In this document: piece by piece, positions 28,869 through 45,500 of the stretch
Position numbering within the stretch: position 1 is the first letter of the stretch
How the letters are laid out: the number at the start of each line of letters is the position of its first letter
Assembly (NCBI GenBank): GCA_013314755.1
Contig: JABUFA010000001.1
Location: 211,594 to 275,593 of the forward strand
DNA: 64,000 nt
Reading direction: 5' to 3'
Source of the DNA: Chthonomonadia bacterium
Lineage (GTDB): Bacteria > Armatimonadota > HRBIN16
Made by a program: the position numbers and the translations under genes
The notes under the pieces: model-generated
Told to the model about the DNA's origin: nothing
Databases searched by the model: none
The model's input: the letters and a program-made list of their open reading frames with translations, nothing else

Positions 28869-29624
28869 CTATCCCCTGTTGATGAGGTGCGCCAGGTAGC
28901 CTGCGCCGAAGCCGTTGTCGATGTTCACCACCGCGACGCCGGGCGCACAGCTGTTCAGCATGGTCAGCAGGGGAGCCAGCCCGCTGAAATGCGCTCCGTA
29001 GCCCACGCTGGTCGGCACGGCGATAACCGGACGGCTGACCAGCCCGCCCACCACGCTGGGAAGCGCACCCTCCATCCCCGCTACCACCACCAGCACATAC
29101 GCTCCGAACAGCATCTCCGAGTTCGCCAGCAGGCGATGTAGCCCCGCCACGCCCACGTCATACAGCCTCTCCACCCTGCTTCCCATCTCGGAGGCAGTTA
29201 CCGCAGCCTCCTCTGCTATCGGCAGGTCGGCAGTGCCGGCGGCAACCACTAACACATAGCGGTCCTGTGGCACGCTGGCTTCGGGTTCGCTCTCGCCAAG
29301 CACCAGAATGCGCGCCGTTTCGTGATAGCGTATTCGGGGGAATCGCTCCTTCACCACCGCCGCCAGTTCGGGCGTGGCGCGGGTCGCCAGCACCTTGCGG
29401 TGACGGTTGCTCAGTCGTTCCAGAATCGCCACCACGTGCTCAGGTGTTTTGCCCTGGCAGAATACCACTTCGGGGAAGCCGGTGCGCAGGGCACGGTGTG
29501 TATCAATGCGGGCGAACTCCAGATTCTCGTACGGCAGGGCACGCAGTTGCTGAAGGGCATCCTGCACCGACAGCCTGCCCTCGCGCACGGCAACCAGCAG
29601 GTTTTCAATTGCCTGAGCGTCCAT
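28869..29624 (-). CDS. larB: LarB, nickel-pincer cofactor biosynthesis carboxylase
   Basis: 251 residues. LarB carboxylates and hydrolyses nicotinic acid adenine dinucleotide to the biscarboxylate mononucleotide that LarE then sulfurates. A helical N-terminus ('ENLLVAVREGRLSVQDALQQL') precedes the PurE/AIR-carboxylase-like core: 'VLVVAAGTADLPIAEEAAVTASEMG', 'RLYDVGVAGLHRLL', 'VLVVVAGMEGALPSVVGGLVSRPVIAVPTSVGYG', 'NIDNGFGAGYLAHLI'. The start overlaps the end of larE by 20 bases. larC, needed for nickel insertion, is not in this window. Confidence 0.94.
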   Translation of the reverse strand: MDAQAIENLLVAVREGRLSVQDALQQLRALPYENLEFARIDTHRALRTGFPEVVFCQGKTPEHVVAILERLSNRHRKVLATRATPELAAVVKERFPRIRYHETARILVLGESEPEASVPQDRYVLVVAAGTADLPIAEEAAVTASEMGSRVERLYDVGVAGLHRLLANSEMLFGAYVLVVVAGMEGALPSVVGGLVSRPVIAVPTSVGYGAHFSGLAPLLTMLNSCAPGVAVVNIDNGFGAGYLAHLINRG

Positions 29625-30474
29625 GTGATGCCACCTGAATCGTGTCGGCTGGGATGACGCCCTGTCGGCGCAGAGGCTCGTTCAGGCTACCGGTGCGATA
29701 GCCCGCGAGGTCAAGCGTCACATAGAGATAGCCCAGCTCCTTGAACCTCGCCACGATGATGTCTGCCAGCTCCACCGCTCTGGGCAGGGCGGATTTCTCT
29801 ACCTCGATGCGGGCAATCGTGCCGTGATGGCGTACACGAAACTGCCGAAAGCCCAGCTCGCGCAGACATCGCTCCGCCTGGTCCACCTGCACCAGCAGTT
29901 CCGGCGTGATGGTGGTGCCATACGGAAATCGCGAGGAGAGACAGGCAAACGAAGGCTTATCCCAGTTTGGCAGTCCCGCCGCTTGCGCCGCGGCGCGAAT
30001 GTCTTCTTTGGTGAAGCCTGCCTCTCTCAGCGGACTGCGCACGCCCTGTTCTGCCGCTGCCAGCATCCCGGGGCGATAATCGCCCTCATCCCCGGCGTGT
30101 GAACCGTCGGCTACCCAGCGGATGCCGTGCTCGTCCGCTATCCGCCGGATTACCCCGAAAAGCTCCGTCTTACAGTGATAGCATCGGTCGGGGTTGTTCA
30201 CGCGGAAGTTCGGATTGCTCAGCTCGTGCGTGCGCACCACCACATAACGCCAGCCGCGCTCTTCCGCCAGTCGGCGTGCCTCCTCAATCTCGCCCGCGGG
30301 GAAAGCCTCCGAATCCCCGATAACCGCCAGCGCGTTTTCGCCCAGCACCTCATGCGCTGTGTGCATCAGGAAGGTGCTGTCCACACCGCCCGAATATCCC
30401 ACCGCCACACTGCCCATCTCGCGCAGAATGGCGCGCAATCGCTCCAGTTTGTCGGATAGAGCCGCATCCACCAT
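29605..30474 (-). CDS. larE: LarE, ATP-dependent sacrificial sulfur transferase
   Basis: 289 residues from the ATG at 30474, chosen because GGAGGG lies seven bases before it; earlier in-frame ATGs (30480, 30489) sit on the ribosome site. Pyrophosphatase loop 'VGYSGGVDST', then 'NNPDRCYHCKTELF' and 'KPSFACLSSRFPYG', whose Cys (residue 178 with this start) matches the Cys that donates its sulfur in Lactobacillus LarE. It transfers sulfur to the LarB product in making the nickel-pincer nucleotide. It sits directly after dacF and before larB on the same transcript. Confidence 0.94.
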   Translation of the reverse strand: MVDAALSDKLERLRAILREMGSVAVGYSGGVDSTFLMHTAHEVLGENALAVIGDSEAFPAGEIEEARRLAEERGWRYVVVRTHELSNPNFRVNNPDRCYHCKTELFGVIRRIADEHGIRWVADGSHAGDEGDYRPGMLAAAEQGVRSPLREAGFTKEDIRAAAQAAGLPNWDKPSFACLSSRFPYGTTITPELLVQVDQAERCLRELGFRQFRVRHHGTIARIEVEKSALPRAVELADIIVARFKELGYLYVTLDLAGYRTGSLNEPLRRQGVIPADTIQVASHGRSGN

Positions 30475-30476
30475 CT

Positions 30477-31688
30477 TCATTCCCTCCATCTTATATTACC
30501 CGAACGGCGCACCGCATAGCGTCGGCGGTAACCGTTCAGCCTGCCCTGTCTGGCGAGGCGATTGGTCACCCAGATCAGCACGCCAATCACAATCCACAGC
30601 GCGAGGCTGAAACGAGGTGTCATTCGGGCTTCCACCGCTGCAGTGACCGGCACCTTTGCCACCACCTTACCGTTCACCACCGCCGCCAGCTCGCCCACCG
30701 CCTGCCCGCGCTTGACGGGAGGGCGAACCGGAGCCATGCGCAGAACCGGCTGGACCTCCTCTTTCCATCGCCTGGGCACAATCACCCGCAGAGGCGCAGA
30801 GGCAACAACCGGCACCGAATCCGGCTTCGCCCCATCCACGCGCACTTCACCAACCGCGCCCCCCGCCTGCGCCAGGTCCAGGCGTGTATACTGCCTGTAC
30901 GCCCACTCGATCAGCGCATGGGTGTCTTTATCGGCGTCGGTACTGCCCAGCACGACTGAAATCAACCGCCAGCCGTTGCGCGTCACCGAGCCGACGAAGC
31001 ATCTGCCTGCCTTTGCGGTGTAGCCTGTCTTGATACCGTCTGCGCCGGGCAGGTCCTTCAGGCAGTGCGCGTGAGTGGTCACCACCACATCCTGCTGGTT
31101 CACCGAGCGCAGGATACGCACTTTCTGCGTGCGCACAATCTCGTTGAAGATGGGGTTTTGGATGCAGTATCGCGCCAGTGTCGCCAGGTCGCGGGCGGTG
31201 GAGTAGTGATTGGGATGGTCCAGCCCGTGCGAGTTGGCAAAGCGCGTGTTTTTCAGTCCCAGCTCCTGCGCCTTTTCGTTCATCATCTGCACGAATCGCT
31301 CTTCGGTGCCAGCCAGATACTCTGCCGCCGCAACGCTTCCATCGTTGGATGAGCGTAACATGATAGCATACAGCATATCGCGCAACGGGATGGTCTCGCC
31401 CGGAGTCATGTTCAGGTTGGCATAGCGCGTGCGCACTGCGTTCTCGGTTGCCACCACCAGGTCGTCCAGATTGCCGCGCTCAATCAGCAGGATGGCGGTC
31501 ATCATCTTGGTGGTGCTGGCGATGGCGCGTCGCTCATCGGCACGCAGTTCGTACAGCACCTGTCCGGTGTCTGCGTCCACCACTATCGCCGACTTCGCTT
31601 TCAGAACAGGCGGTGGGATAGCATAAGCCATCCCCGTCACCAACCACCAGACTATGTAAAGGCTCAACACCTTGCGCACGAGATTCAT
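30477..31688 (-). CDS. D-alanyl-D-alanine carboxypeptidase (peptidase S11, DacF-like)
   Basis: 403 residues. A signal peptide or anchor ('VLSLYIVWWLVTGMAYA') precedes the penicillin-binding fold: SxxK as Ser58-Thr-Thr-Lys61, SxN as Ser113-Ser-Asn115, KTG as Lys220-Thr-Gly222. A beta-rich C-terminal domain follows, then one membrane helix (about 367-385, 'FSLALWIVIGVLIWV') and an Arg-rich tail. It trims the terminal D-Ala from peptidoglycan stem peptides outside the cell. GGGGAGG directly abuts the ATG, so a GTG three codons in could be the true start. Between scpB and larE. Confidence 0.92.
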   Translation of the reverse strand: MNLVRKVLSLYIVWWLVTGMAYAIPPPVLKAKSAIVVDADTGQVLYELRADERRAIASTTKMMTAILLIERGNLDDLVVATENAVRTRYANLNMTPGETIPLRDMLYAIMLRSSNDGSVAAAEYLAGTEERFVQMMNEKAQELGLKNTRFANSHGLDHPNHYSTARDLATLARYCIQNPIFNEIVRTQKVRILRSVNQQDVVVTTHAHCLKDLPGADGIKTGYTAKAGRCFVGSVTRNGWRLISVVLGSTDADKDTHALIEWAYRQYTRLDLAQAGGAVGEVRVDGAKPDSVPVVASAPLRVIVPRRWKEEVQPVLRMAPVRPPVKRGQAVGELAAVVNGKVVAKVPVTAAVEARMTPRFSLALWIVIGVLIWVTNRLARQGRLNGYRRRYAVRRSGNIRWRE

Positions 31689-31699
31689 CCTCCCCTGTT

Positions 31700-32257
31700 C
31701 TACATCTGCAGTGCGGGTTGTTCGCTCTTCTCTGGCTGATTCCCCTCGGAGAGGCTCAGCTCCTCCAGATCCGGTAGCTCCTCTAAGGAGTTTAAGCCGA
31801 AGTAATGCAGGAACTGCGGGGTGGTTCCGTACAGCACGGGTCTGCCTGCCGTCTGTTTGCGCCCCACCTCCTGAATCAGCCCGCGCTGTAGCAGGGTGCG
31901 CACCACTCCGTCCGATTGTACCCCACGAATGGCTTCAATTTCGGGCAGGGTAATGGGCTGGCGATAGGCGATAATCGCGACCGTCTCGAGCGCGGCGCGG
32001 GAGAGTTTGCTGGGCTGTGGCTGAAGGTAACGGGCAACGACCTCTGCGAATTCCGGGCGCGTGCAGAGCTGATATCCACCTGCTACCTGCACCACCTGCA
32101 ATCCGCTGTCTTGCAAACGCTCCTCCAGCAGGCGCAGGGCTTCTTGCAGGCACTCTTCCTGTTCGCGAAGCACCTCCACCAGTGTCTTCATGGGTATCGG
32201 CTCGGTGGCGACAAAAAGCAGGCACTCCACCGCATGGCTAAGACGCTGGATGTCCAT
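31700..32257 (-). CDS. scpB: ScpB, segregation and condensation protein B
   Basis: 185 residues. Two winged-helix domains: the first about residues 5-75 ('LSHAVECLLFVATEPIPMKTLVEVL', 'GGYQLCTRPEFAEVVARYL'), the second about 85-160 ('LSRAALETVAIIAYRQPITLPEIEAIRGVQSDGVVRTLLQRGLI'). It dimerises and binds the ScpA kleisin in the SMC complex that organises the chromosome. AAAGGAGG precedes the ATG, and the start overlaps the scpA end by 20 bases. Confidence 0.95.
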   Translation of the reverse strand: MDIQRLSHAVECLLFVATEPIPMKTLVEVLREQEECLQEALRLLEERLQDSGLQVVQVAGGYQLCTRPEFAEVVARYLQPQPSKLSRAALETVAIIAYRQPITLPEIEAIRGVQSDGVVRTLLQRGLIQEVGRKQTAGRPVLYGTTPQFLHYFGLNSLEELPDLEELSLSEGNQPEKSEQPALQM

Positions 32258-32996
32258 CGCTCGCCTCCTTTCGCGCCCACAGGGTTATCTCGCCGAACAG
32301 GTCTTCCTGCCGGGCTTCTACTCGTCCCTGTCGCATCAGCTCCAGCACCGCCAGGAAGGTCAACAGCACCTCCCAGCGTGTGAAGGGGGTATCCAGTAAA
32401 TCTTCAAAGCGCAGCCCCTCCTGCGCGCCCTGTATCCTGCGCCACACCTCCACAATTTTGAGTCTCAGCGAGAGGCGTTTGCGCGGAATAAGGATAGCGG
32501 GAGGCGGGGTATCTATAGCTTCCGCCAGCAATCGCTCCAGCGCACGCAGAAGGTGCTGGGGAGTCAGCTCGCCGACGGGTATGGGCAGTTCGTAATCAGG
32601 CATGGGCGCGTCGGGGCTTCGGAAGAACCACTGTTTGCGCTCCGACTCCCATGCCTGCAGGGTCTCCACCAGCGCTTTGTACTTCTGGTATTCGATAAGG
32701 CGCGCGGTCAGCTCCGCTCGCGGGTCCTCTTCTTCCTCATCGGCTGGGCGGGGCGGCTTGGGCAGTAACATGCGCGACTTTATCTCCAGCAGGGTCGCCG
32801 CCATCACCAGAAACTCGCTGGCGATTTCCAGGTCCAGCTCCTCCATCATGCGCAGGTATTCCAGATACTGGTCGGTAATCAGGGCGATGGGAATGTCGGT
32901 GATAGAAACCTTGTTCTCGCGCACGAGATGGAGCAGAAGGTCTAGGGGACCTTCGAAAACGGGAAGATGCAGGGTTATTGCAGAGACGGCGGGCAT
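32238..32996 (-). CDS. scpA: ScpA, kleisin subunit of the SMC complex
   Basis: 252 residues. The N-terminal kleisin helix region 'FEGPLDLLLHLVRENKVSITDIPIALITDQYLEYL' and 'EIASEFLVMAATLLEIKSRMLLP' is diagnostic. An acidic linker (EEEEEDPRAE) follows, then the C-terminal winged helix ('FEDLLDTPFTRWEVLLTFLAVLELMRQGRVEARQEDLFGEI') that binds the SMC head. The ATG lies one base after the stop of the upstream restriction nuclease, so a foreign-looking pair has been placed directly in front of this housekeeping gene. Confidence 0.95.
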   Translation of the reverse strand: MPAVSAITLHLPVFEGPLDLLLHLVRENKVSITDIPIALITDQYLEYLRMMEELDLEIASEFLVMAATLLEIKSRMLLPKPPRPADEEEEDPRAELTARLIEYQKYKALVETLQAWESERKQWFFRSPDAPMPDYELPIPVGELTPQHLLRALERLLAEAIDTPPPAILIPRKRLSLRLKIVEVWRRIQGAQEGLRFEDLLDTPFTRWEVLLTFLAVLELMRQGRVEARQEDLFGEITLWARKEASDGHPAS

Positions 32997-32997
32997 C

Positions 32998-33897
32998 TCA
33001 GTGTTCCTCTATAAGAGATTTCCAAATCTGGCGTCTTAGCGGAAGTTCTTTAAGCAGGAAATCTGAGAACCCGAAAACCCTGCTTTCCGAAGGGAAAAGA
33101 TTCTGCTTTACAGCGTCTCGAACAACAAGATAAATGTTTTGCTCTTTCAACTTTCCGATTTTCGAATGTGCTAAGTCTTTTTTTGCCTCCTCCAGTGTTT
33201 CTGTAACTAACAGATAAACGCTCAACCCTCCAGTAATTCCTAACTCCTCAAAAACCTGTTTGTATCTTTCACGCAAAGAACGCTTCACAGATACAATGAT
33301 GCAACGCTGCCTATCCCGTTTCCATGCTTCGCGATTTGGAAATAAGAAGTCAACCTTTCCGTTGAGAACAGTTTGTGTCTCGAACTCTCCTGAATAGCCG
33401 AGTAGACGCAACAGATATTCGAAGTGAGTCTGCGGACTGCCGCCAGCCCGAGTGCACCGCCCTTGGGACAACGATTGTTCGAACAACATGTAGAACGGGC
33501 GAAGCAAACTCGCCAACTCGCTCAGCCTTTGAGTAGACTCTTCCGTTTGATTTTCGATCATCTGTAGAGCCATCTGAAGCATCTGTGCGGTGTGGGGATA
33601 TTTTTCAAGAACCTGAGCATTGTTCAATGCAAGCCGAATCGCCTCTGCAATACACTTTTCTTCATACTGCAAGTAGATTTCGTACTCCGTATCCAGTAAA
33701 TCACAAAAGAATTCATCCACGGTCGTTTCACGGAATGCTTCTTTCTGGGGCTCTACGCCGTCCCACCGCGTGTCTATAACTTTTCTTCGCGCTTCCAGCG
33801 CCAGTTGTTCTCCTGACGGGATTATCTGTTGGCGCACCCACGCAACGAAGCCGTCAGAACCTTGCATTTCTCTCTTGATGGCAAGCCAGTTGCTCAT
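32998..33897 (-). CDS. type II restriction endonuclease, EcoRII-C-like, R-M system 2
   Basis: 299 residues. The C-terminal half has 'TRAGGSPQTHFEYLLRLLG', 'VDFLFPNREAW' and 'IIVSVKRSLRERYKQVFEEL'. These correspond to the EcoRII-C-type PD-(D/E)XK site: Asp in VDFLFP, Lys in VSVK, and the Arg/Lys-rich helix after it. The N-terminal 150 residues are helical and may contact DNA. The coding sequence is clearly richer in A+T than its neighbours (about 42 percent G+C in its last 60 bases, against roughly 60 percent around it), suggesting recent acquisition. Its start overlaps the methylase stop by four bases. Confidence 0.78.
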   Translation of the reverse strand: MSNWLAIKREMQGSDGFVAWVRQQIIPSGEQLALEARRKVIDTRWDGVEPQKEAFRETTVDEFFCDLLDTEYEIYLQYEEKCIAEAIRLALNNAQVLEKYPHTAQMLQMALQMIENQTEESTQRLSELASLLRPFYMLFEQSLSQGRCTRAGGSPQTHFEYLLRLLGYSGEFETQTVLNGKVDFLFPNREAWKRDRQRCIIVSVKRSLRERYKQVFEELGITGGLSVYLLVTETLEEAKKDLAHSKIGKLKEQNIYLVVRDAVKQNLFPSESRVFGFSDFLLKELPLRRQIWKSLIEEH

Positions 33898-35180
33898 TGC
33901 GACTTCTCCAAAACAACAATGTGTTCTCTCGTGATAGTTTCACCTCGTTCCCCAGGCACGTTACTTGGGCTGTTCTGCAGGGGCATACGCTTGTTCGGAA
34001 TACGGCGTTCAAATTGCTCGACGAACCGCCAACCGAAGCCTTCCGCTATTTCGCGCAGGATGGTATCGGTTGGCACACGTATCCCCCGAACGGTACGGTT
34101 GCCCACCACGAAGCACGCTTTCGCCCCAGCCCGACATACGCGAGTAATCTCCACAAAGCACTGCGCGAAGTCATCATAAAAGGCTTTCACCTGTCGGGCG
34201 CGTCGGGTGTCGCGCTGGCTAATCTGTTCTACCGTCGCCTCTAATGACTGGGAGCGGTACAGAGATGTCTGCGCCTTATCCTGTAGTTTCCCTCCTAAAG
34301 CCCGTCGGTCAACGCTCTTTGCTTCCTCGCAGGGCAGTCCTAACCATTGCAGGGAGAGCCGCGAAAACTGCCCGTATGCCACTGTGGTCTGCGAGTCGCC
34401 GTATGGCGGAGATGTGACCACTAAATCCACGCTCGCATCGGGAATAGGCTGACGCAAACGGGTATCCGACTGGAACACCTGTACATGGGTGCGGTGGTCC
34501 ACCTGAGCGTTGAACTCTGCCATCCCTGCGATGTTCTTTTCGACCTTCGCAATGAACGTACCGAGCACATCAGGGCGGAAATCGCGAATCTGGCTCTCTG
34601 GCAGGCGATATAGTTTGAACTCGCCTTTGCGGGTATACGAGCACTCACGCACCGTATGCGAGAACGCCACCAACATAAACTGCCGAACCGCCTGGTCCAG
34701 GATAGCGAAAATCACTTCACGCAGACAAGCAAGCTGCAACTGCACTTCTGGAGAGAACCAGTAGTCCATGTTGAAGAACTGGGGAACCTGTACCGTTCCG
34801 TTTTGGCGCCGCAGTTGATAGGCGTCGATAATCTCCAGGAGAGCTCCTTGCAACACAGATTCCGGGATGTCGGTTGTTTTCGCGCGAGCCAGCAACACCG
34901 CCAAGGGGTTAATGTCTATCCCATAGCCGTTCAGCCCCGCCAGTCGCGCCTCGACCAGCGACGTGCCAGAGCCGCAAAAGGGGTCAAGCAGTGTCTGCCC
35001 GCGCTGTCCATACATGCCGATAAGCCGACGTGCCACCTGTGGAATCATCATCGCGGGGTAGGCATGGAAACCGTGTGTGTGCGTTTTGGTATCGGCGGAG
35101 GCGTAATCCCAATCCTCCTCAATAAGAGGCTGTTGGGTATCTCGAGGCACGTATAGCAGGCTGATTTGTTCCTTCACCAT
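33894..35180 (-). CDS. DNA methyltransferase (TSPPY type), R-M system 2
   Basis: 428 residues from the ATG at 35180 ('MVKEQISLLYVPRD'). The frame stays open to an ATG at 35234, but that codon overlaps the likely -10 box, so the shorter start is preferred; its ribosome site (AAAGGAG) is rather far, 17 bases away. Motif I 'LLDPFCGSGTSLVEARLAG', motif IV 'VVTSPPYGDSQTTVAY', in that order. Likely N4-cytosine or N6-adenine specificity. It should protect against the EcoRII-C-like nuclease encoded next, with which it overlaps by four bases. Confidence 0.9.
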   Translation of the reverse strand: MVKEQISLLYVPRDTQQPLIEEDWDYASADTKTHTHGFHAYPAMMIPQVARRLIGMYGQRGQTLLDPFCGSGTSLVEARLAGLNGYGIDINPLAVLLARAKTTDIPESVLQGALLEIIDAYQLRRQNGTVQVPQFFNMDYWFSPEVQLQLACLREVIFAILDQAVRQFMLVAFSHTVRECSYTRKGEFKLYRLPESQIRDFRPDVLGTFIAKVEKNIAGMAEFNAQVDHRTHVQVFQSDTRLRQPIPDASVDLVVTSPPYGDSQTTVAYGQFSRLSLQWLGLPCEEAKSVDRRALGGKLQDKAQTSLYRSQSLEATVEQISQRDTRRARQVKAFYDDFAQCFVEITRVCRAGAKACFVVGNRTVRGIRVPTDTILREIAEGFGWRFVEQFERRIPNKRMPLQNSPSNVPGERGETITREHIVVLEKSQ

Positions 35181-35224
35181 CGCTTTGGCGTTATGTGCTC
35201 CTTTGGCATGGCTTCGCTCACTAT

Positions 35225-35253
35225 AATATAGCATATCACGCCCGCGATGCGAA
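35225..35253 (-). promoter_or_regulatory. putative promoter of R-M system 2 (may also drive scpAB-dacF-larEB)
   Basis: Minus strand: TATATT (35225-35230), 17-base spacer and TTCGCA (35248-35253). It lies at the border of the repeat block. No other obvious promoter was seen between here and larB. Confidence 0.45.
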
Positions 35254-35298: not shown

Positions 35299-35600
35299 GC
35301 CCCCCTGTCGTCCCCCCGCAAGCAGGGGGACAGTCCCTCCCCGCCTGCGGGGAGGTTAGGAGGGGCTATTCGGGGTCGGCTCACCGGGAGGTTCGCCATC
35401 CAATTTGGCGGACGTGTTATGCTATGGAGGGCGAGGCTCCCGCCGAGCCGTTGTAAACCTAACCCCCAGCCCCTTCCCTGCGAGGGAAGGGGAGCATCTC
35501 CTCTCCCCGCGTCGGGGAGAGGTCGGGAGAGGGGTCCCCAGCCTCCCTGCAAGAGAAAAACCTCTCCCCGCGTCGGGGAGAGGTTGGAGAGGGGTTTCAG
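35299..35600. repeat. composite repeat block downstream of the pilus operon
   Basis: Contains a 'CCCCCGCAAGCAGGGGG' hairpin unit (35299-35333), a right-end inverted-repeat arm (GGCTCACCGGGAGGTTCGCC from 35378), a left-end arm (TGGAGGGCGAGGCTCCCGCC from 35425), and the 65-base two-palindrome unit (35458-35522), with a second copy of the CCTCTCCCCG palindrome at 35561-35583. The whole 35254-35614 gap between the R-M promoter and the giant gene is made of these elements; no gene is seen. Confidence 0.7.
35553..35583 (-). terminator. intrinsic terminator of the 25-kb pilus operon
   Basis: On the minus strand a perfect ten-pair stem (CCTCTCCCCG, loop, complement; 35561-35583) is followed at once by TTTTTCTC. 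It lies 32 bases after the stop of the 2274-residue gene. The stem is a copy of the dispersed 23-base palindrome. Confidence 0.75.
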
Positions 35601-35614
35601 AACAGGATGCCTGC

Positions 35615-38600
35615 TTAGGGCACAATCACATCGGGATACAGCCGCGGGCTGAAGGCTTCAAAGAACAGGTCACTGGTGCCGCCGCGCGTGCTGTTCCAGA
35701 AGAGCCACACCTTCGGTTCGAACTCGTCCTTCAGGGCGAACAGGTTGCTCTCGCTGGTGGCACCGACCAGCGGTACCATCGCCTGCGAGCCTTCGGTGGC
35801 TTCGGACGTCTCATCAATCCAGCGCACCACGCCCACCACCGTGCGCGGACTGGATTCGGGGTTGCCCTGCGCGTCCAGAGCGGTGTAGGTGATGCTTACC
35901 AGTTTGCCCTCGTCCGCTTCGGTGAAGTAGAGGCGTCCTCGTGCGAAGTCCACCTCCACCGGTCCCACAGGTGCACTGAGACCGGTTACCTGCACACCGG
36001 ACACGTCGGGGCGACGCTCGCCCTGACCGTCGGTGATGATGGGCGTATACACCGGCGCGGGCAGGTATATTCCGAGCCGCATGGTCTTCGCCACGAACAC
36101 TTCCGCGGTCGGCGAGCCTGTGGACTTGCGGTAGAACAACCACAGGCGGTCTACCGGCGGCGACTGGGTGGGGTTGTTCAGCGCGGGCAGAATGTACTTC
36201 CAGCGCGGGTTCTGCGACTTCTCCAGTCCGCCTGTCGGTGCGCTGTTAGCGCCGGCGTAGAAGGCTATCGGTTGCGGCACCGGCACGCCATCGTTAGGCA
36301 TCAGCGAGTTCCATCCGTGGTTCGCCGTCAAGCGCATCGCACGCGGCGTGTAGTCGGCGAAGATGACATCTGTGCGCGACGGAGCGCGATACGGGAAGGT
36401 GACCGTGCCCGCCGACAGGTCTATCACCGCCTGCCAGTCAATCTGTGTGCGTGCGCTGTCGGTGTATCGGGTGAGGTACAGGATGCCCGTGTTCGAGTCG
36501 TACTGCTGACCGTACCAGTAGTTCCCCGACTGCTGGATGTCGTTGGCTGCCAGCGGTTGCGGGTCGCCCACGCGCCAGATGCGGATACGCTGTCCCCGCG
36601 CCCAGGAGAGGTCTCGCGACATCCAGACGTTGGTGGTGCCGATGCGCTGGAGCACCTCGCCGCGCACCGGAGGCAGGTTGACCGGTGTCAGTGCGCCTCC
36701 ACCGCCCAGCCTGAAGCGGGTGAGCAGTATCTCATTGGTCTGGCGCGTCTTGGTGGAGGCGGTATAGATGACGTCGAGGTAGCCGGCGCGCGGGATAGCC
36801 AGCGGCTCGAAGGCGTTGGTCACCACCGCAGGCACCGGCAGTTGCTGGTCGCGCGTCCATGCGCTGGGGTTCAGCGGGTTGCCCAGGCAGGCGTTGTAGT
36901 AGATGGTATAGCGTCCGCTGGCTCCGCTGTACCAGAACATCACAGGCACGCCGCCGATGACCGTCACGCGCGGCTGGAAGCGTGGCAGAGCCGCATCATT
37001 GCCCAGCGCCACGGGCGTTCCGGGTACGCCGTTCACAATCGGCGCCACGAAGGTCACATTCTCTATCAGGATGGAACCGTTGTCCTGACGCTTCGCCGCC
37101 TGTCCCTGCCACAGCAGGTAGGGCTGACCGCCCGCAACAAAGAACGTCGGCGCGTAGTGCTTGATAGAGGACGGAATAACCGTGCCCGGCAGGGTGGTGA
37201 ACAGTTTGCCGTACTTATCGCGCACCGCGCTGTTCGTCGGGTCGCGCGGATACTCCACACTGCGCCCGCTCCACCACTGCGTGGGGGAGGCAGGCATCCA
37301 CACTCCACGCTGAGCATCGCGTGGCAGAACAGCGACATGCAGGAACCAGGCGTTGCTCCCGGAGGGTTGCGTCTCGCGGTAGCTGTCGGTTCCATCTTCA
37401 ACGGGGCGGTTGCGGCTCCAGTTACTGCTCCACGCCAGCAACATGCTATCGGCGCCCATCAGCGCGGCGGGTTGCACGTTCGCTGACAGGTAGCCGGGCT
37501 GTCCGGGCTGAGGCGGAATGCCCTGCCATATCGTATCCACCTGCGGCAGAGAGCCGCTGGAGGTGCTGTTGGTCAGGCGCGATTCGGTTACCGTCACTTT
37601 CACCCGCATGGTCGGCTCGCTAACCGGCTGAGCGGGTTCGTTGTTCGCCAGAACGCCCAGCACGTACGGGTTCCACGACGCCGCTTCAAAGATGCGGATG
37701 AGGTTGCTGTAAGTGCCCGCCGGCGTGCCCAGCGGAACCTGCACACTGACCAGCGGTTTGGTGGTGGGCACGTTGTCAAATGCGCCGCCCGCGGCGCCCG
37801 GATAGGGTTTGTCCGGGATGGACAGTACGGTCGGACTGCTATCAGGGCGCGGCTTGTGCAGGGTGTGCATGCCCGGGAAGCCGTTGTACAGCGGCGGGCG
37901 CATGGCCAGCCACATCGGGTCGTAAATCTGGTCAAGCGAGGTGAACACGTTCTGCTGAACCACGCTTCCGTCCGACCGACGCACCCAGCCGGCGGTCAGC
38001 GCAGGTTTGTGGAAGGTGAAGGTCGGGTCGCCAATGGGGCTGACCTCCCAGTAGTACGGGTTCACCTGGTCGCTAACCAGCGTGATGGGCAGCGGATTCT
38101 GGAACACCGGGTTGCCGCCAGCGTCCAGATAGTCCACCGAGCCCACCGCGCGCACGTTTAGCAGGTTCACATTGCTGAGGCTTCGCACCGTAAACGGCTT
38201 CCAGAACGGCTTCAGCGACTGGTACCACGGGTCGTTCAGATAGGTCGGGTCGCTATCCGAGATGGGCGGGCGGAAGGCGTGTGTCGCCGGGTCGGGATGC
38301 ACGCCGAAACCGTGCGGCACCGCGCCGATGTCGATGGTCTCTTCTTCCACGCGCAGGCGCATGTCGGGCGGGATGCCCAGCGTGATCCGGAACTCGCGAT
38401 ACGGCTCCTCGCGGGTAACTGGCGGCGTCTGGCGCAGTCTCGCCCCGCCGGGCAGATCCAGGTCGCCGTTATTGTTGACGTCCACATACACGCGAATCGG
38501 GGCGCGGAACCGCGTGGCATAACCGCGCGCAGTCAGCGGATTGATGCCGTCAAAGCCCACCAGGTTCGCGGGCTGGAACTGCGGCACCTGCACCATCACT

Positions 38601-41600
38601 TCGCCGACGGTGGGCACTAACGTCCAGCTGGTCCAGTCCGGCGCCACGCCTACCGGGTCGGTCGGGGGAGCCAACGCACCGCCTCGCGCAGCAGCAGACA
38701 GGTCTACGCCACCTGCAGATACCCTCAACGCTCGTTCAGGGATGTCCGGGTAGTCGACGCTGGTGTTCGGGATGTTCACCGGCAGCTCGTCCCAGGGCAG
38801 GGGGTTAATCACCGCCAGCGAGCCATCGTCGTTGTTGTGCCATGCCAGTCGCTCGCGCTCGACTTTCACCCGAAGCGGGTCACCGCCCAGCAGAGCCACC
38901 TTCGAGCGGTCGGCAATCTGGATGAGCCGGCTTCCGCTGGCGCCGTGCGGCACCAGCCCCATGACCACCCACGCCAGGTTCTTGCCGGCGTTGCCGTTCA
39001 TACTCAGCTCCTGCGGCACCGAGTTACCGACCACCGTTTGCCCAATCCATCCTACCTCAAAGGTAGTGTTGGGGTTGATGGTGCCGTCCGGGTTCAGGAT
39101 GCGCAGCGCCAGCGGGTGGGCAATGGTGAACTCGAAGTATGGGTCTACCGTGCGCTCCATCGTGATTGTGGTGGTTTGCTGTCCGCCGCCTGTGGTGGTG
39201 GTTGCGGTGGCACGTACAGCGGCGGTGTAGCGTGCGCCGGGCGTCCACGCATCGCCGTCCTGTGTCGGTACGATACGGAAGGCGTGATACGCCATCCATT
39301 TCTGGTTCACGCCCACGTCGGTTCCATATGGTACCACACCAACCGTGCGGTTCACCGTCGCGGCGCGACTGCGCAGACTCAGCGTCACCGAGCGGGCAGG
39401 AGGCACCAGCCCCTGCATTCCATAGGCGATCACGTACACCGTATCGCCCCACTCATAGCCAATCTTGCGCGTGTGTCCGCCGGCGACCACCTCTTCTGGC
39501 GTGCGGGTGCGCCGCTGTACGATGTCGGCGTACTCTTCCGCCGTGAAGATTTCCACCTTCAGGTTCGTCAGTTCTGGCGTCAGCGAGGCGTCCACCAGCT
39601 CCGCGCCCGGAGGCTCACCCGGCGTCAGATAGCCACCGGTTGGCGAGAAGGCGTAGATGATGCCGTCATCTCCGGCGATGTACATCCAGTCGTTCGCCAC
39701 CGCGGGCGAGGCAAATACCGACTGCCCCAGCGTCTGCCAGCCCCACAGCACATCGCCGCGCACGTTAATCGGGTTGCCGTTGTTGTCCAGCACCTGCCGG
39801 AAAGTGCCCGGTCCGCTGTTGAACGCGCTGAGCGCCAGCACCTTGCCGTCCATCAAGCCGAATACAATAGCCGGCAGGGGACCCGTGCCTGTCGCCGAGC
39901 GGCTGGGGATAATCTGCGTGAACGTGATGGAGGAGTAGATCGACGCACCCATCGAGCCGCTGGCGGATGCCACCGGGTTCAGCGGGTCGGTCACATCCTG
40001 CCAAACCAGCTCCGTCCTGCCATCGCCTGTGCCCTGCGCATCCAGGGCGTACACGGTGCCGCCCCGGTCGCCGATAAACACCACGTCGCGGACACCGGTA
40101 ATGGTGGTAACCTGCGCTGCCACCGTCGGCGAGGAGTACAGGAACGGCTCTACGGGGTCTTCATCGCCTGCTGTGCTTACGGGTGGATTCTGGGCATAGG
40201 GCCACACCCACACCCGCTCGGTGCGCCGGCGACCGCTGCCTTTCTCCTTGACGCAATATACTCGTCCATCCGCGGCGGCGAAGTACACTTTGCCGTCAAA
40301 GATAGCCGGCGTGGTGGAGATGGCGTCCAGAGGCAGCTCTTCGTTCAGCGCGGGATCGTCGCCCGAGGCGGGTTCATATTTGCCCGGATAAACCCAGCGT
40401 TCGGTGGTGGTACCGCTGGAGCCTTCGGCGTCCAGGGCGTACATTCGCCCATCCAGACCGCCCACGAAAATGGTCGGACCGACGTCGCTGGTGCGGTTGT
40501 ATGCGGGCGAAGAGACGAAACCGTTCACGACCGCCGCCTTATCCGCGGCGGGATAAATCCAGATACGGTCGGTGGTACCCGGGTTGGTCGCGCTGAAGTC
40601 GCCATTTCCGCTGGCATCCAAACAGTACACGCGCCCGTTGGAGTTGGCAACATACACCCGCCAGTCGGGCGAGCCGCTTGTCCCGATATTCACCACCAGC
40701 GGGGAGGAGTATCCAAAGGAACCGACCACCGGTCGCTCATTCAGGGGCTCTTCGGGATACACCCAGTACGAGAAGGTCGTGCCGTCGCCGTTGCCCACGG
40801 CGTCCAGCGCATATACCTTGCCGTCATTCGCGGAGAAGAAGACCACCTGCCTGTCGGCAACCGTTCCGCCGGAGACGCGCATGGGCACGGTCTGCACCAC
40901 CGGAGTGGAGAAGATACCGCTGGCGCCCGTTCCCTGCTCCACAAACCGCGCCGCGTCGGCAATCACCACGCGCCCTTCGGTCACCTCGCTGGCTTTGCGG
41001 CAGTAGTTGACCAGCTCCACGTAGTTGGTCGTACCCTGTCGCATCCGGTAGGTGCCCAGGCTGAACCACTGTCCGCCCGCCGTGTTCTGCGTCTGGTCTA
41101 CCTCCACCACCGTGTCACCGTCCTCGTGGTGCACGATATAGCGGGCTGCCGTCGTGCGGCTCACGCTACCGTCGTCCTGGGGCAGCCAGACGTAAATAGT
41201 GTACTGCGCCGTTGTCGCTCCGTTGGAGGGTTGAAGGTCTGGTTGCCAACGCACACGCCTCCAGGTGGTGGAATCGGTGCTGCCTGTGACCGTTGTCTGC
41301 AGGTAGCTGGTGCTGTACGGGTCGGGCTGAGGCGTTGCGGGTGCTGTCCAGCCCGGGTCCGCCTGGAAGGTGGGCGCACCGTCGGCGTCATCTACGGTAA
41401 CCGCCCGCTGTCCGCTCACGTTCAGCGGATAGCGCCACACCACTCGCCCGGCGTTGTCAAAGCAGTACATCACGCCGATTTCCACGCTGGCGGTGGGGTC
41501 GTTCGGGTCGGCGACACGCTCGATGCGTCCGATGAACACCCTCTGCGCCAGCTGTCCGGGCGCAACCTGTATCATTGCCGCCACCGGCGAGGAGTAGAAC

Positions 41601-42439
41601 GAGCCCAGGTCGGGCATAAAGCGCACGCCGTCGAACACCACCAGTCGCCCAGCGTCATCAAAGTTGCCGTCATCGTCGGTGTGCGTGGAGGTGTTGTATG
41701 CGTAAACCTCTACGGGGCGTCGTCCGTCGAAGGGAAAAGTCAGGTCACTGCGTAGCCGGGTACGCTCCCACCTGCTGGTGGCGGAGTTGTACACGTAGGC
41801 GATGCTTCCTGCCGTGCCCAATCGTATCCAGTTACCACCGGCTGTCTGGTCCACCACCAGAATGACCTCGCCGTAGGTGTTTGTGCCGGTGGGATAACGC
41901 ACCTTGTATACCGCTTCGCGCACGTTGCGGTTGCCCTGCGTGCCGCTGGAGGGGAACCATACGGCAATCTGATAGCGAGTGGGTCTGGCAACAAGCGGGT
42001 TATAGGCGGAATCGGCCGGGTCCAGCTCGTTCGGAGTAGCATTACGCCATCGCACAACCACCGTGGCACCGCTCGTGGGGTCATTGGCGTTGCTGGGGTT
42101 GACTGCTGTGGCGTAGTCGTAGGAGTCGCGGAAACCGTCGGTCACGGCGTTGGTATCGGTGATGGTGATGGTGGTCACCGAGCCCTGCGTTACCGTGTAG
42201 TCACCAGCGCGGTTGACCCCGTCGCGGTCTATCTCCAGCGTGATGCCTCTATCCTGCTGGGCGGGCCACCACCAGCGCAGATACGCCCTGCCCGGACCCT
42301 GCTCGGTGCTGAGGTTTGTCGCGCCTGTACGCTGAGGGTCGCGGCGGAACATCGGAAAATCGTCCGCCCACACCGCGCACTGCCCAAGCAGCACGCTCCC
42401 GATTATCCATGCCAGTAACCAGTTTCTCGCTGTTGCCAT
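35615..42439 (-). CDS. giant exported beta-propeller protein with two golvesin-like domains
   Basis: 2274 residues from the ATG at 42439; the frame is open further to 42586, but only this start gives a signal peptide ('LLAWIIGSVLLGQCAVWA', cut before DDFP). 'FPMFRRDPQRTG' begins a PQQ/BamB-like propeller, as in quinoprotein-like exported proteins. Golvesin-C-like domains lie near residues 155-225 ('RYQIAVWFPSSGTQGNRNVREAVY', 'VVDQTAGGNWIRLG') and 405-500 ('YTIYVWLPQDDGSVSRTTAARYIVHHEDG'). Blades repeat as 'VYALDA.G.GDG' and 'VYCLDASG', residues about 550-950. The C-terminal 1300 residues are beta-rich and Pro-rich with further propeller-like runs. Last gene of the pilus operon; likely surface-exposed or secreted. 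Function unknown. Confidence 0.85.
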   Translation of the reverse strand: MATARNWLLAWIIGSVLLGQCAVWADDFPMFRRDPQRTGATNLSTEQGPGRAYLRWWWPAQQDRGITLEIDRDGVNRAGDYTVTQGSVTTITITDTNAVTDGFRDSYDYATAVNPSNANDPTSGATVVVRWRNATPNELDPADSAYNPLVARPTRYQIAVWFPSSGTQGNRNVREAVYKVRYPTGTNTYGEVILVVDQTAGGNWIRLGTAGSIAYVYNSATSRWERTRLRSDLTFPFDGRRPVEVYAYNTSTHTDDDGNFDDAGRLVVFDGVRFMPDLGSFYSSPVAAMIQVAPGQLAQRVFIGRIERVADPNDPTASVEIGVMYCFDNAGRVVWRYPLNVSGQRAVTVDDADGAPTFQADPGWTAPATPQPDPYSTSYLQTTVTGSTDSTTWRRVRWQPDLQPSNGATTAQYTIYVWLPQDDGSVSRTTAARYIVHHEDGDTVVEVDQTQNTAGGQWFSLGTYRMRQGTTNYVELVNYCRKASEVTEGRVVIADAARFVEQGTGASGIFSTPVVQTVPMRVSGGTVADRQVVFFSANDGKVYALDAVGNGDGTTFSYWVYPEEPLNERPVVGSFGYSSPLVVNIGTSGSPDWRVYVANSNGRVYCLDASGNGDFSATNPGTTDRIWIYPAADKAAVVNGFVSSPAYNRTSDVGPTIFVGGLDGRMYALDAEGSSGTTTERWVYPGKYEPASGDDPALNEELPLDAISTTPAIFDGKVYFAAADGRVYCVKEKGSGRRRTERVWVWPYAQNPPVSTAGDEDPVEPFLYSSPTVAAQVTTITGVRDVVFIGDRGGTVYALDAQGTGDGRTELVWQDVTDPLNPVASASGSMGASIYSSITFTQIIPSRSATGTGPLPAIVFGLMDGKVLALSAFNSGPGTFRQVLDNNGNPINVRGDVLWGWQTLGQSVFASPAVANDWMYIAGDDGIIYAFSPTGGYLTPGEPPGAELVDASLTPELTNLKVEIFTAEEYADIVQRRTRTPEEVVAGGHTRKIGYEWGDTVYVIAYGMQGLVPPARSVTLSLRSRAATVNRTVGVVPYGTDVGVNQKWMAYHAFRIVPTQDGDAWTPGARYTAAVRATATTTTGGGQQTTTITMERTVDPYFEFTIAHPLALRILNPDGTINPNTTFEVGWIGQTVVGNSVPQELSMNGNAGKNLAWVVMGLVPHGASGSRLIQIADRSKVALLGGDPLRVKVERERLAWHNNDDGSLAVINPLPWDELPVNIPNTSVDYPDIPERALRVSAGGVDLSAAARGGALAPPTDPVGVAPDWTSWTLVPTVGEVMVQVPQFQPANLVGFDGINPLTARGYATRFRAPIRVYVDVNNNGDLDLPGGARLRQTPPVTREEPYREFRITLGIPPDMRLRVEEETIDIGAVPHGFGVHPDPATHAFRPPISDSDPTYLNDPWYQSLKPFWKPFTVRSLSNVNLLNVRAVGSVDYLDAGGNPVFQNPLPITLVSDQVNPYYWEVSPIGDPTFTFHKPALTAGWVRRSDGSVVQQNVFTSLDQIYDPMWLAMRPPLYNGFPGMHTLHKPRPDSSPTVLSIPDKPYPGAAGGAFDNVPTTKPLVSVQVPLGTPAGTYSNLIRIFEAASWNPYVLGVLANNEPAQPVSEPTMRVKVTVTESRLTNSTSSGSLPQVDTIWQGIPPQPGQPGYLSANVQPAALMGADSMLLAWSSNWSRNRPVEDGTDSYRETQPSGSNAWFLHVAVLPRDAQRGVWMPASPTQWWSGRSVEYPRDPTNSAVRDKYGKLFTTLPGTVIPSSIKHYAPTFFVAGGQPYLLWQGQAAKRQDNGSILIENVTFVAPIVNGVPGTPVALGNDAALPRFQPRVTVIGGVPVMFWYSGASGRYTIYYNACLGNPLNPSAWTRDQQLPVPAVVTNAFEPLAIPRAGYLDVIYTASTKTRQTNEILLTRFRLGGGGALTPVNLPPVRGEVLQRIGTTNVWMSRDLSWARGQRIRIWRVGDPQPLAANDIQQSGNYWYGQQYDSNTGILYLTRYTDSARTQIDWQAVIDLSAGTVTFPYRAPSRTDVIFADYTPRAMRLTANHGWNSLMPNDGVPVPQPIAFYAGANSAPTGGLEKSQNPRWKYILPALNNPTQSPPVDRLWLFYRKSTGSPTAEVFVAKTMRLGIYLPAPVYTPIITDGQGERRPDVSGVQVTGLSAPVGPVEVDFARGRLYFTEADEGKLVSITYTALDAQGNPESSPRTVVGVVRWIDETSEATEGSQAMVPLVGATSESNLFALKDEFEPKVWLFWNSTRGGTSDLFFEAFSPRLYPDVIVP

Positions 42440-42521
42440 ATGGTCTTCACCCTCACTTCCACTCAGCAATCTCTTCACACTCTGTTTGACGAAACGGCAT
42501 GGGGATTCGTTCGTAACCCCC

Positions 42522-45500
42522 TCAGAACGGTCTATCCGCATAGAAGGGTGTATCCACCCGATATGTGTCACTGCTGACGACCTCATTGACGTTCGCCCAG
42601 CTCTTCACCCGTCGCGGCGTCCACCACACGATGTCCTCCGGCCTCATCCCGTCGGTCAGGTAGGTGCGTGGACCGTCAATTTCATTTTCCACCCGTGTGG
42701 CGCCCGGGTTGTAGTTGGCGGGGTCTATCTCAAAGACCTCTCCGTTGAACCTGCTGCTATCGGGCAGGAGCCCGCGATAGGCGTTGGCTATCAGGTAGTG
42801 TCCGTTGGGCAGACGTACAGCGCTCACCGCCCACAGCGGGATAGCCCGGCTGATGTATACATCCACCGGCTGTGGTCCTCTGATGCGGTCCCGCAGGTGC
42901 GTCAGACTGCGGTACACCTCGTCGGTCAGCCTCCATTTGATACGCCACTGATTGGGCGCGAGGCGTTCCAGGTCAAACACGCCCTTATCGGTGGCGAGTA
43001 CGATGTTGTACACGACGGTTCCTGTTGCGCTGTCGTAGCGCACCGGATACACCTGCACGCTGTTCGGACTGCCGATAGGCACCCGGTTATTGGAGCCGAG
43101 CGGTTCGTTGGGCAGAAGTACCTCGCTGAAAGCTTCGGTGATGTCCAGTCCAGCGCCGATGGTGCGCACCATCACCGTGCCCCCGACGCCCTCTTCGCCC
43201 GTGCCGTCCGGGCGCACGCGATAGTTGGCTACCGTCGCCACTAGTGTAAACACCGGTGCACCGCCGCTGTAGCCCGACACGATGCGCTGGATACCCGTGT
43301 AGCGGTACTTGCGCCTCTCGGCGCCGCTCGCGCTTGTCCAGAACAGCTGGCGTCCTGCAATCAGCGGACCGACCGCTCCAGTGGTGGCATCGGCGGCGTA
43401 GCGGTCTACCACGTCGATCAGCCGCCCGTTGCCCGTGTCGGCAATCAGGTAGTGCACCCAGAACTCCAGGTCCTGCGCGTCTTCAAAGGGGTTGACCCGA
43501 TTGCCACCCGCTTCTTTCGGCACGTATTCGGTGTAGATGTTCACGTCCTGCGGCTCGCGCAGTTCGTGCGGGTCGCCCGGCATCAGCGGGGCGGGCGGCT
43601 TCGTGGGGTCCGACAGGTCAAGGCGAGGCGGGTTCTCGAATCGGCGCAGTTCCGCCGTCACGTTGCCCGACCGATCCACCCACACGATGCGGTTGTTGCC
43701 GGTATCTACCACAATCATCTCGTTTGCGCTGGTGCGATACACTTTTGCAGGGCGTGCCACCGATGTAGGCGTCACGCTCACCACTGGCGCGGAACCACCT
43801 GAAGCGGTTCCCCACAGCCTGCTGGCATCCATGCTCCACGCCACCTTGCCGCCCGGGTCCATTTCCAGCAGGCGGTGGCTGTCGGCAATCAGCGTCATCT
43901 GACGCTCAAACACCTTGATGCCCGTATCGCCGACCGCCGCCAGCAGTCCACCCGACACGGCGACCGACGCGATGCCCTGAGTGCCCACCTGCGCCCGACG
44001 CAGCTCGTTCAGTGTGGCTGTCAGCAGGTTGACCAGAGACGGTCCCCACGTCGCCGGGTTGTTCGGGTCGTAGCCGTAATCCGCCGGCTTGCCCAGCGCG
44101 GGCCACAGCACGTGGTTCGGCTTGTCCGAGTCCTGGGTAATCAATGGCACGTCGTCGCCCGTCTGGATGCTGGGGTCGGTTGCGGTGGGATCGGCAGAGA
44201 CCGCAATCACCGTAGAGACCTGCACTCCCGGCGCATCTACCTGCACCGGCAGGTATACCACGTCGCCCGCCACTACCGGCGATGCCTTCACCCGCACCGC
44301 CGGGATGAACATGAACCACTTCAGGTTGCTGTAGGTAGAAGGCTGGATGAAATACTGGCGCGGCGGCTCACTGCCTGCAGTGACCACCACCAGCGTGGGC
44401 TGAGACAGGCTGAAGGCGAATATTGCGCCGCCTCCGCCCGCGCCCGGCATCATGTTATTGATGGTGATGATTCCGCCAGCCCGGTTGACCGAATACTGCG
44501 CCGGCTGCACATAGGTATACTGCGTAGGACCGCTGGCACTGCGTATCACGTCCACCTGCCGGATTTGCAGGGTGGCGTTGCCCGGGATGGCGATGGGGTT
44601 GCCGTTGTCGTCGCGCAGGCGCAGTTCCACGCGCGGGTTGTTGTTGAACGCCATCAGCACCGTGCCCGGTATCTCGCCGATGGGCGGACCGAAGTTTGCG
44701 CGCGCCTCCGCCACCGCGTAGGTGGTGTCGCCGAACACGGCAGGCGGTGCAGAGAAGCCGACCGGGTTAATGCCGATGTACTGCCCGGAGGGCAGCGGCG
44801 TGCCGAACAGCGTGTGCTTCAGCTGCAGGGATGGGGGCACGTTCACCTGCTGTTGAGGCGTAATCTGGTCGGTGTATCCGTTGTGCAGCTGCCAGCGCCA
44901 GCGCATCACCGTTCGGTTGCCCGGCTGTTCCAGCACGGCGTACACACTGCCATTATCGGTGGTATAAATCACGTTATCGCCGGCATCCAGCGCGGGCTGA
45001 CCCATGATGTTTTTGCTCGGATTGGGCACGACGTCGGCGATACCCACGCTGGTGCGTACCGGTGTGCCGGGCGACTTGCCCCAGTCGATAAAGTAGTTCA
45101 TTACCACCACCGGGTTGGTGGCTGGCTGGCTGGAGAACTGAATCGTGCCTGCGTTCACCGTCACGCGCGAATCGGGCAGGTCGTAGCGGTCTACCAGCAC
45201 CAGCGAGCCGTCCGTCTGGCGGTTATACACCCACACCACCGGGTTCAGCGGGGTGTAAGGGCTGGTTGGGTCCGCCAGGAAGATGTGCAGCTGCCGTCCC
45301 TGCGCGCGGGTGACAAAAGTGCGCTTATCGTTGTTCGGGTTGCTGAGCACCTCACCCTTCGTGCCCAGCCAGAAAGCGTACACGGCGCTGGTCAGCGTGC
45401 CCGTAGTGGAGCTGGGAGCAGTGGAGACGTAAGCCATCAGGTCGGAAGCGATGGAGCCTTCGCCCGTTTGCCCTCTGTCCTGCACATAGCCCAGTGTGAC

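Follow-up and report, generated by a model that had tools for sequence, protein, structure and literature searches.

In this genus of uncultured hot-spring Armatimonadota, the site between an upstream terminator and scpA is quite probably a slot for defence genes inside the scpAB operon, occupied by a type II restriction-modification (R-M) pair that would pre-date diversification of the genus. This one operon position has held two unlike defence systems, the R-M pair and a class 2 DISARM system. The reading is built on observations of gene order, deletion scars, promoter retention, tree congruence and replacement of one system by another. Forty relatives were searched with ScpA, of which nine are congeneric and the rest share only the phylum, giving a genus set of ten genomes. 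Metatranscriptomes of hot-spring mats record an active member of class HRBIN16 (PMC11788075), which may or may not belong to this genus.

In the window, meaning the whole 64,000-nucleotide stretch of DNA that was analysed, the relevant genes all lie on the minus strand, running from a gene for a 2323-residue protein, through a terminator and a promoter, to the methyltransferase, the nuclease, scpA, scpB, a carboxypeptidase gene, and larE-like and larB-like genes. The intrinsic terminator of the upstream gene (35559..35585) consists of a 12-pair stem and a T tract, and terminators occupy the equivalent position in G001, G003, G004, G005 and G009. Between 35460 and 35590, after the 2323-residue gene, there are repeated palindromes (CCTCTCCCC...GGGGAGAGG), one of which scores as a terminator. 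The 2323-residue protein itself (35615-42586) has a golvesin C-terminal domain and weak beta-propeller matches, and its gene is the upstream neighbour of the site in most congeners. On the other side of the pair, scpA (32238..32996; Pfam PF02616, SMC_ScpA) encodes the SMC kleisin and overlaps scpB (31700..32257; Pfam PF04079, SMC_ScpB, and TIGR00281, both above cut-off). Genes for a D-Ala-D-Ala carboxypeptidase, assigned by Pfam, and the larE-like and larB-like proteins, named from reading their translations by eye rather than from a family call, follow in the orientation of scpAB (28869..31688), an order that is kept in congeners.

The methyltransferase (33894..35180) is an amino-methyltransferase of the N6/N4 type (Pfam PF01555, N6_N4_Mtase, 4.3e-14; PADLOC MTase_II, PDLC03322, 444 bits), while the restriction endonuclease (32998..33897) carries an EcoRII-C domain (Pfam PF09019, 3.8e-13, 50.3 bits against a cut-off of 25). 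Such adjoining methyltransferase and restriction endonuclease genes are the arrangement of a type II R-M system. The two reading frames share a four-base ATGA stop-start overlap (33894..33897), and a single base separates the nuclease stop (ending at 32998) from the scpA start (32996), exactly the junctions that the preliminary description had reported. The start of the methyltransferase is likely to be the ATG at 35180 rather than the ORF finder's choice of 35234, because the latter falls inside the -10 box of the promoter, and a stop codon interrupts its frame in both G004 and G002. With one promoter and overlapping junctions, the pair is predicted to form an operon with scpAB.

That promoter (35221..35253, minus strand) is the sole coding-strand match to a sigma-70-like consensus between 31600 and 35700, leaving none inside the nuclease gene or elsewhere in the cassette. 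It comprises a -35 box, TTCGCA (35253-35248), a 17-nucleotide spacer and an extended -10, TGC-TATATT, within TATGCTATATTATAG (35221-35235). In G000, G001, G002, G004 and G007, TATGCTATATTATAG with a TTTGC-like -35 precedes the methyltransferase; in G009 and G006, which lack the R-M genes, the same promoter stands directly before scpA, with one change in G006. Comparing scpA upstream regions with those of R-M-less relatives supports the earlier proposal of a dependence of the kleisin genes on the R-M promoter: the upstream gene is terminated, and the promoter is kept before scpA after the R-M genes have gone, making it very likely, as judged from these sequence comparisons, that scpAB relies on the promoter ahead of the R-M pair. 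Where the whole upstream region has changed, in G003, G005 and G008, the motif is absent from the scpA site, and scpA does without this promoter.

Across the ten genomes there are eight exact matches to TRTGCTATATTATAG, seven at this site and one in G007, where contigs overlap by 127 identical bases and this place is present twice, alongside three one-mismatch matches elsewhere (G000, G002 and G003). A generic promoter motif was consequently rejected, as exact copies are confined to this site among the ten genomes. In the seven genomes sharing it, 14 of the 15 motif positions are invariant, compared with 29 invariant sites among the 87 shared fourfold positions of scpA, a contrast that is descriptive in that the motif was chosen after being seen. 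Consensus sigma-70 scans are weak guides, with that of G001 giving no match and so missing even this promoter, and that of G004 giving further weak matches inside the R-M cassette; the best internal score in G002 is 13.6, below the range of 14.9-15.6 given to the promoter in the six other genomes scored.

The occupants of the site vary over the genus: four genomes have the R-M pair (G000, G001, G002 and G004), one the methyltransferase alone (G007), two DISARM (G003 and G005), and three neither (G006, G008 and G009). In G002 a contig break falls within the methyltransferase, and the locus lies on two contigs. Completeness is listed as 89% for G006, 77% for G007 and 80% for G008, making absence from the whole genome less certain in these, while the scpA site was read in all ten. 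No copy of the nuclease was found away from the scpA site in any of the ten genomes, and it is gone from six of them. A methyltransferase relative, about 70% identical, lies at another locus in G008 (L077:1786-3093), without a nuclease and without the promoter motif.

The two simple losses have left scars. G009 is closest to G002, with 96.3% identity over five flanking proteins and a shared grouping in the tree, and follows it from the -35 box through the leader and methyltransferase codon 8, before skipping to the cassette's end and scpA. At the junction, a short stretch similar to the end of the nuclease gene precedes scpA, and the scar is a 13-codon ORF, MREERVSELKEGE, whose stop overlaps the scpA ATG as TAATG. 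The scar ORF of G006 also ends in TAATG on scpA; its final residues, PGESGEEMTREHIVVLEKG, compare with PGERGETMTREHIVVLEK of intact methyltransferases, and about the last 18 methyltransferase codons are kept. These short ORFs are leftovers of methyltransferase and, apparently, nuclease coding sequence. In the G006 and G007 lines the nuclease was probably lost first, because the methyltransferase end abuts scpA there, an order to be expected if losing the methyltransferase before the nuclease is harmful.

The R-M pair does not appear to be a recent insertion, since G009 and G006, which lack it, bear its scars and share the promoter with the R-M-bearing genomes. A recent acquisition, as the preliminary description had implied, was also rejected by the shared location of the pair throughout the genus, and by the topology of the methyltransferase tree, which equals that of the tree of five flanking proteins for the shared genomes. 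The unrooted nuclease tree of four genomes does not conflict with the flanking tree, and support is weak at one node in this comparison. Rooting used ScpA and ScpB with 18 of 19 outgroup loci (L027, whose stretch holds no ScpB, was dropped), and placed the R-M-bearing G004 outermost, followed by the R-M-bearing G000, though the order of these two is poorly supported (63/71). Most simply, the R-M pair at scpA would be ancestral in the genus and vertically inherited, having been lost separately in G006, G008, G009 and the G003/G005 line, and in part in G007.

In G005, the slot from the upstream terminator to scpA is filled by genes matching PADLOC models for DrmMII, a nicking endonuclease, DrmA, DrmB and DrmC, and G003 has the same gene order, with 73% identity in drmB, a gene found in only these two of the ten genomes. 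The set of drmMII, drmA, drmB and drmC that defines class 2 DISARM is thus present in G005 by PADLOC, where all four models match, while for G003 it is recognised from ORF order and drmB. The operon differs from class 2 DISARM in a nicking-endonuclease-like gene after drmMII, and in drmC ending 17 bases before scpA in both genomes. The G005 gene matching the nicking endonuclease model (L031:1829-2560) lies between drmMII and drmA, and an ORF of equal size takes the same place in G003.

A defence hotspot is marked by unlike systems that occupy a single position flanked by conserved genes, as found here. As described in PMC12707154, the enterobacterial immigration control region and hotspot 37 similarly hold exchangeable R-M and other defence systems between conserved boundary genes, with DISARM among the systems of hotspot 37. 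Compared with these regions, the slot described here lies inside an operon-like unit, extending from the promoter to the scpA start with a stop-start overlap, and the promoter survives its simple losses. The ORFs read at the scpA site included no recognisable tRNA or integrase gene. A literature search, judged mostly by titles and the openings of abstracts, found no description of defence genes in an scpA operon.

Among solved structures, the best match of the nuclease is Ecl18kI (2fqz; 3.8e-6). Residues D183, K205, R209-E210-R211 and E218, matched with those of Ecl18kI, are invariant in all seven aligned homologues, and on this basis the predicted nuclease looks intact; from the residue roles of Ecl18kI, we take D183, K205 and E218 to be catalytic, and assign the role of the RER motif (209-211) likewise. 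The pair resembles R-M systems of the EcoRII, Ecl18kI and PspGI kind in its EcoRII-C nuclease, with K-x3-RER and catalytic D, K and E as in Ecl18kI, but differs from them in its partner, an amino-methyltransferase of the N6/N4 type. EcoRII proper, a type IIE enzyme, has an N-terminal effector DNA-binding domain, whereas Pfam finds only EcoRII-C here, at residues 136-271. The RER motif presumably points to a CC(N)GG-like target, which is our guess. Site avoidance told nothing of specificity and lent this target no support: the frequencies of CCWGG and CCNGG are alike in loci from congeners with and without the R-M genes, with observed/expected CCWGG ratios of 0.46 in the window, 0.45 in R-M-bearing congener loci and 0.46 in R-M-less ones. 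GGCC is strongly depleted in the window (21 observed against 364 expected, a ratio of 0.06), with ratios of 0.10 and 0.12 for two groups of loci from congeners (L031-L035, L037-L039, L078); another R-M system or modification may target it throughout the genus.

The nuclease was rightly described as poorer in G+C than its surroundings, at 46.4%, compared with 55.8% for the methyltransferase, 59.7% for scpA and 60.1% for the whole window, but this does not hold as a sign of arrival. All four bearers in the genus share the low G+C (49.0, 51.0 and 52.5% in the other three), as do three genomes of another family (47.5-51.0%), and it is a standing property of this nuclease rather than a mark of recent arrival. 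Nor was the arrangement seen to recur with uniform composition in distant relatives; it was encountered in this genus alone, and the nuclease is G+C-poor in all its bearers. Another family of the phylum and Poribacteria also contain relatives of the R-M pair, and a nuclease relative lies in a Bacteroidetes contig that starts at the nuclease gene, with neither scpA nor scpB near the R-M relatives outside the genus within the locus stretches examined. A mobile origin was considered, and no nuclease relative was present in the viral contigs or plasmids searched; a survey of mobile R-M forms reportedly appeared in 2010. In the other family, decaying pairs were seen at L079:2325-2889, with a large internal methyltransferase deletion, and at L082:5835-6530, where a truncated methyltransferase and nuclease pieces lie side by side.

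A defence slot within the operon is compatible with either of two origins for its promoter. That the R-M genes brought it, the reading of the preliminary description, is a serious possibility, held at somewhat less than even confidence: their insertion would have cut scpA from its old promoter, the R-M promoter would have driven scpAB since, and losses would have to keep it. The simple losses do retain it, and R-M operons of the other family have their own extended -10-like sequence before the methyltransferase, identified by eye (TATGGTATAAT in L080, GGGTATAAT in L081); yet extended -10 boxes are generic, and the genus genomes include no pre-insertion state. The relocated methyltransferase of G008, in lacking the motif, speaks against this origin and for the other, which we advance tentatively, that the promoter is native to scpA, and that the R-M genes entered between the two and borrowed a housekeeping promoter. 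In seven of ten genomes the motif accompanies the scpA site, with R-M genes or without, but scpA of G008 lacks it, and both R-M-less sites with the promoter bear methyltransferase scars, and so are not pre-insertion states.

Two further explanations compete with this reading. The genes might merely be neighbours, with scpA served by its own internal promoter and the conserved one mattering only for the defence genes; weak internal matches in some genomes would allow this, but the window has no such coding-strand match, and the promoter is intact in G009 and G006 though no defence genes are left at the site, making the idea unlikely. A hotspot into which related R-M systems inserted several times independently would account for R-M proteins being less alike among congeners (67-93% identity for the methyltransferase, 59-63% for the nuclease) than the five flanking proteins (79-96%), and DISARM shows that replacement happens at the site. 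Such a history is nevertheless very unlikely, given the agreement of the methyltransferase tree with that of the flanking genes, and the single promoter, single junction type and deletion scars in genomes that have lost the pair.

According to the preferred explanation, a slot within the scpAB operon, the type II pair would have entered before the genus diversified and become the first two cistrons of the operon, with one promoter, the ATGA overlap, and a junction with scpA that either overlaps or leaves one base between stop and start. Defence and SMC kleisin genes would then be made from one transcript, with probable translational coupling at the junctions. Later losses would be deletions within the transcribed unit that spared the promoter and scpA junction, as seen in G009 and G006, or removed only the nuclease, as seen in G007, with scpA's need for a promoter filtering which losses survived. 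In the ancestor of G003 and G005, cassette and promoter together would have been replaced by a DISARM operon, its last gene again close before scpA. A more ambitious version, which we regard as doubtful, would see in the scpA leader an exchange slot favoured by selection, where defence cassettes persist as translationally coupled, promoter-proximal cistrons within the kleisin operon, such that defence dose follows segregation-gene expression, and leftover ORFs still start scpA translation.

Defence islands have mostly been described as accessory DNA beside core genes, whereas here the slot would lie inside a housekeeping transcription unit. Sister species serve as natural deletions, in which the promoter is the part kept when the defence genes go. 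Hence the coupling of R-M to host genes can be tested by comparison. The preliminary description had suggested that such coupling might stabilise the acquired system against loss, yet the comparison contradicts this, as the nuclease has gone from six of the ten genomes, and the losses keep the promoter; coupling to a housekeeping gene does not alone prevent the loss of a defence system.
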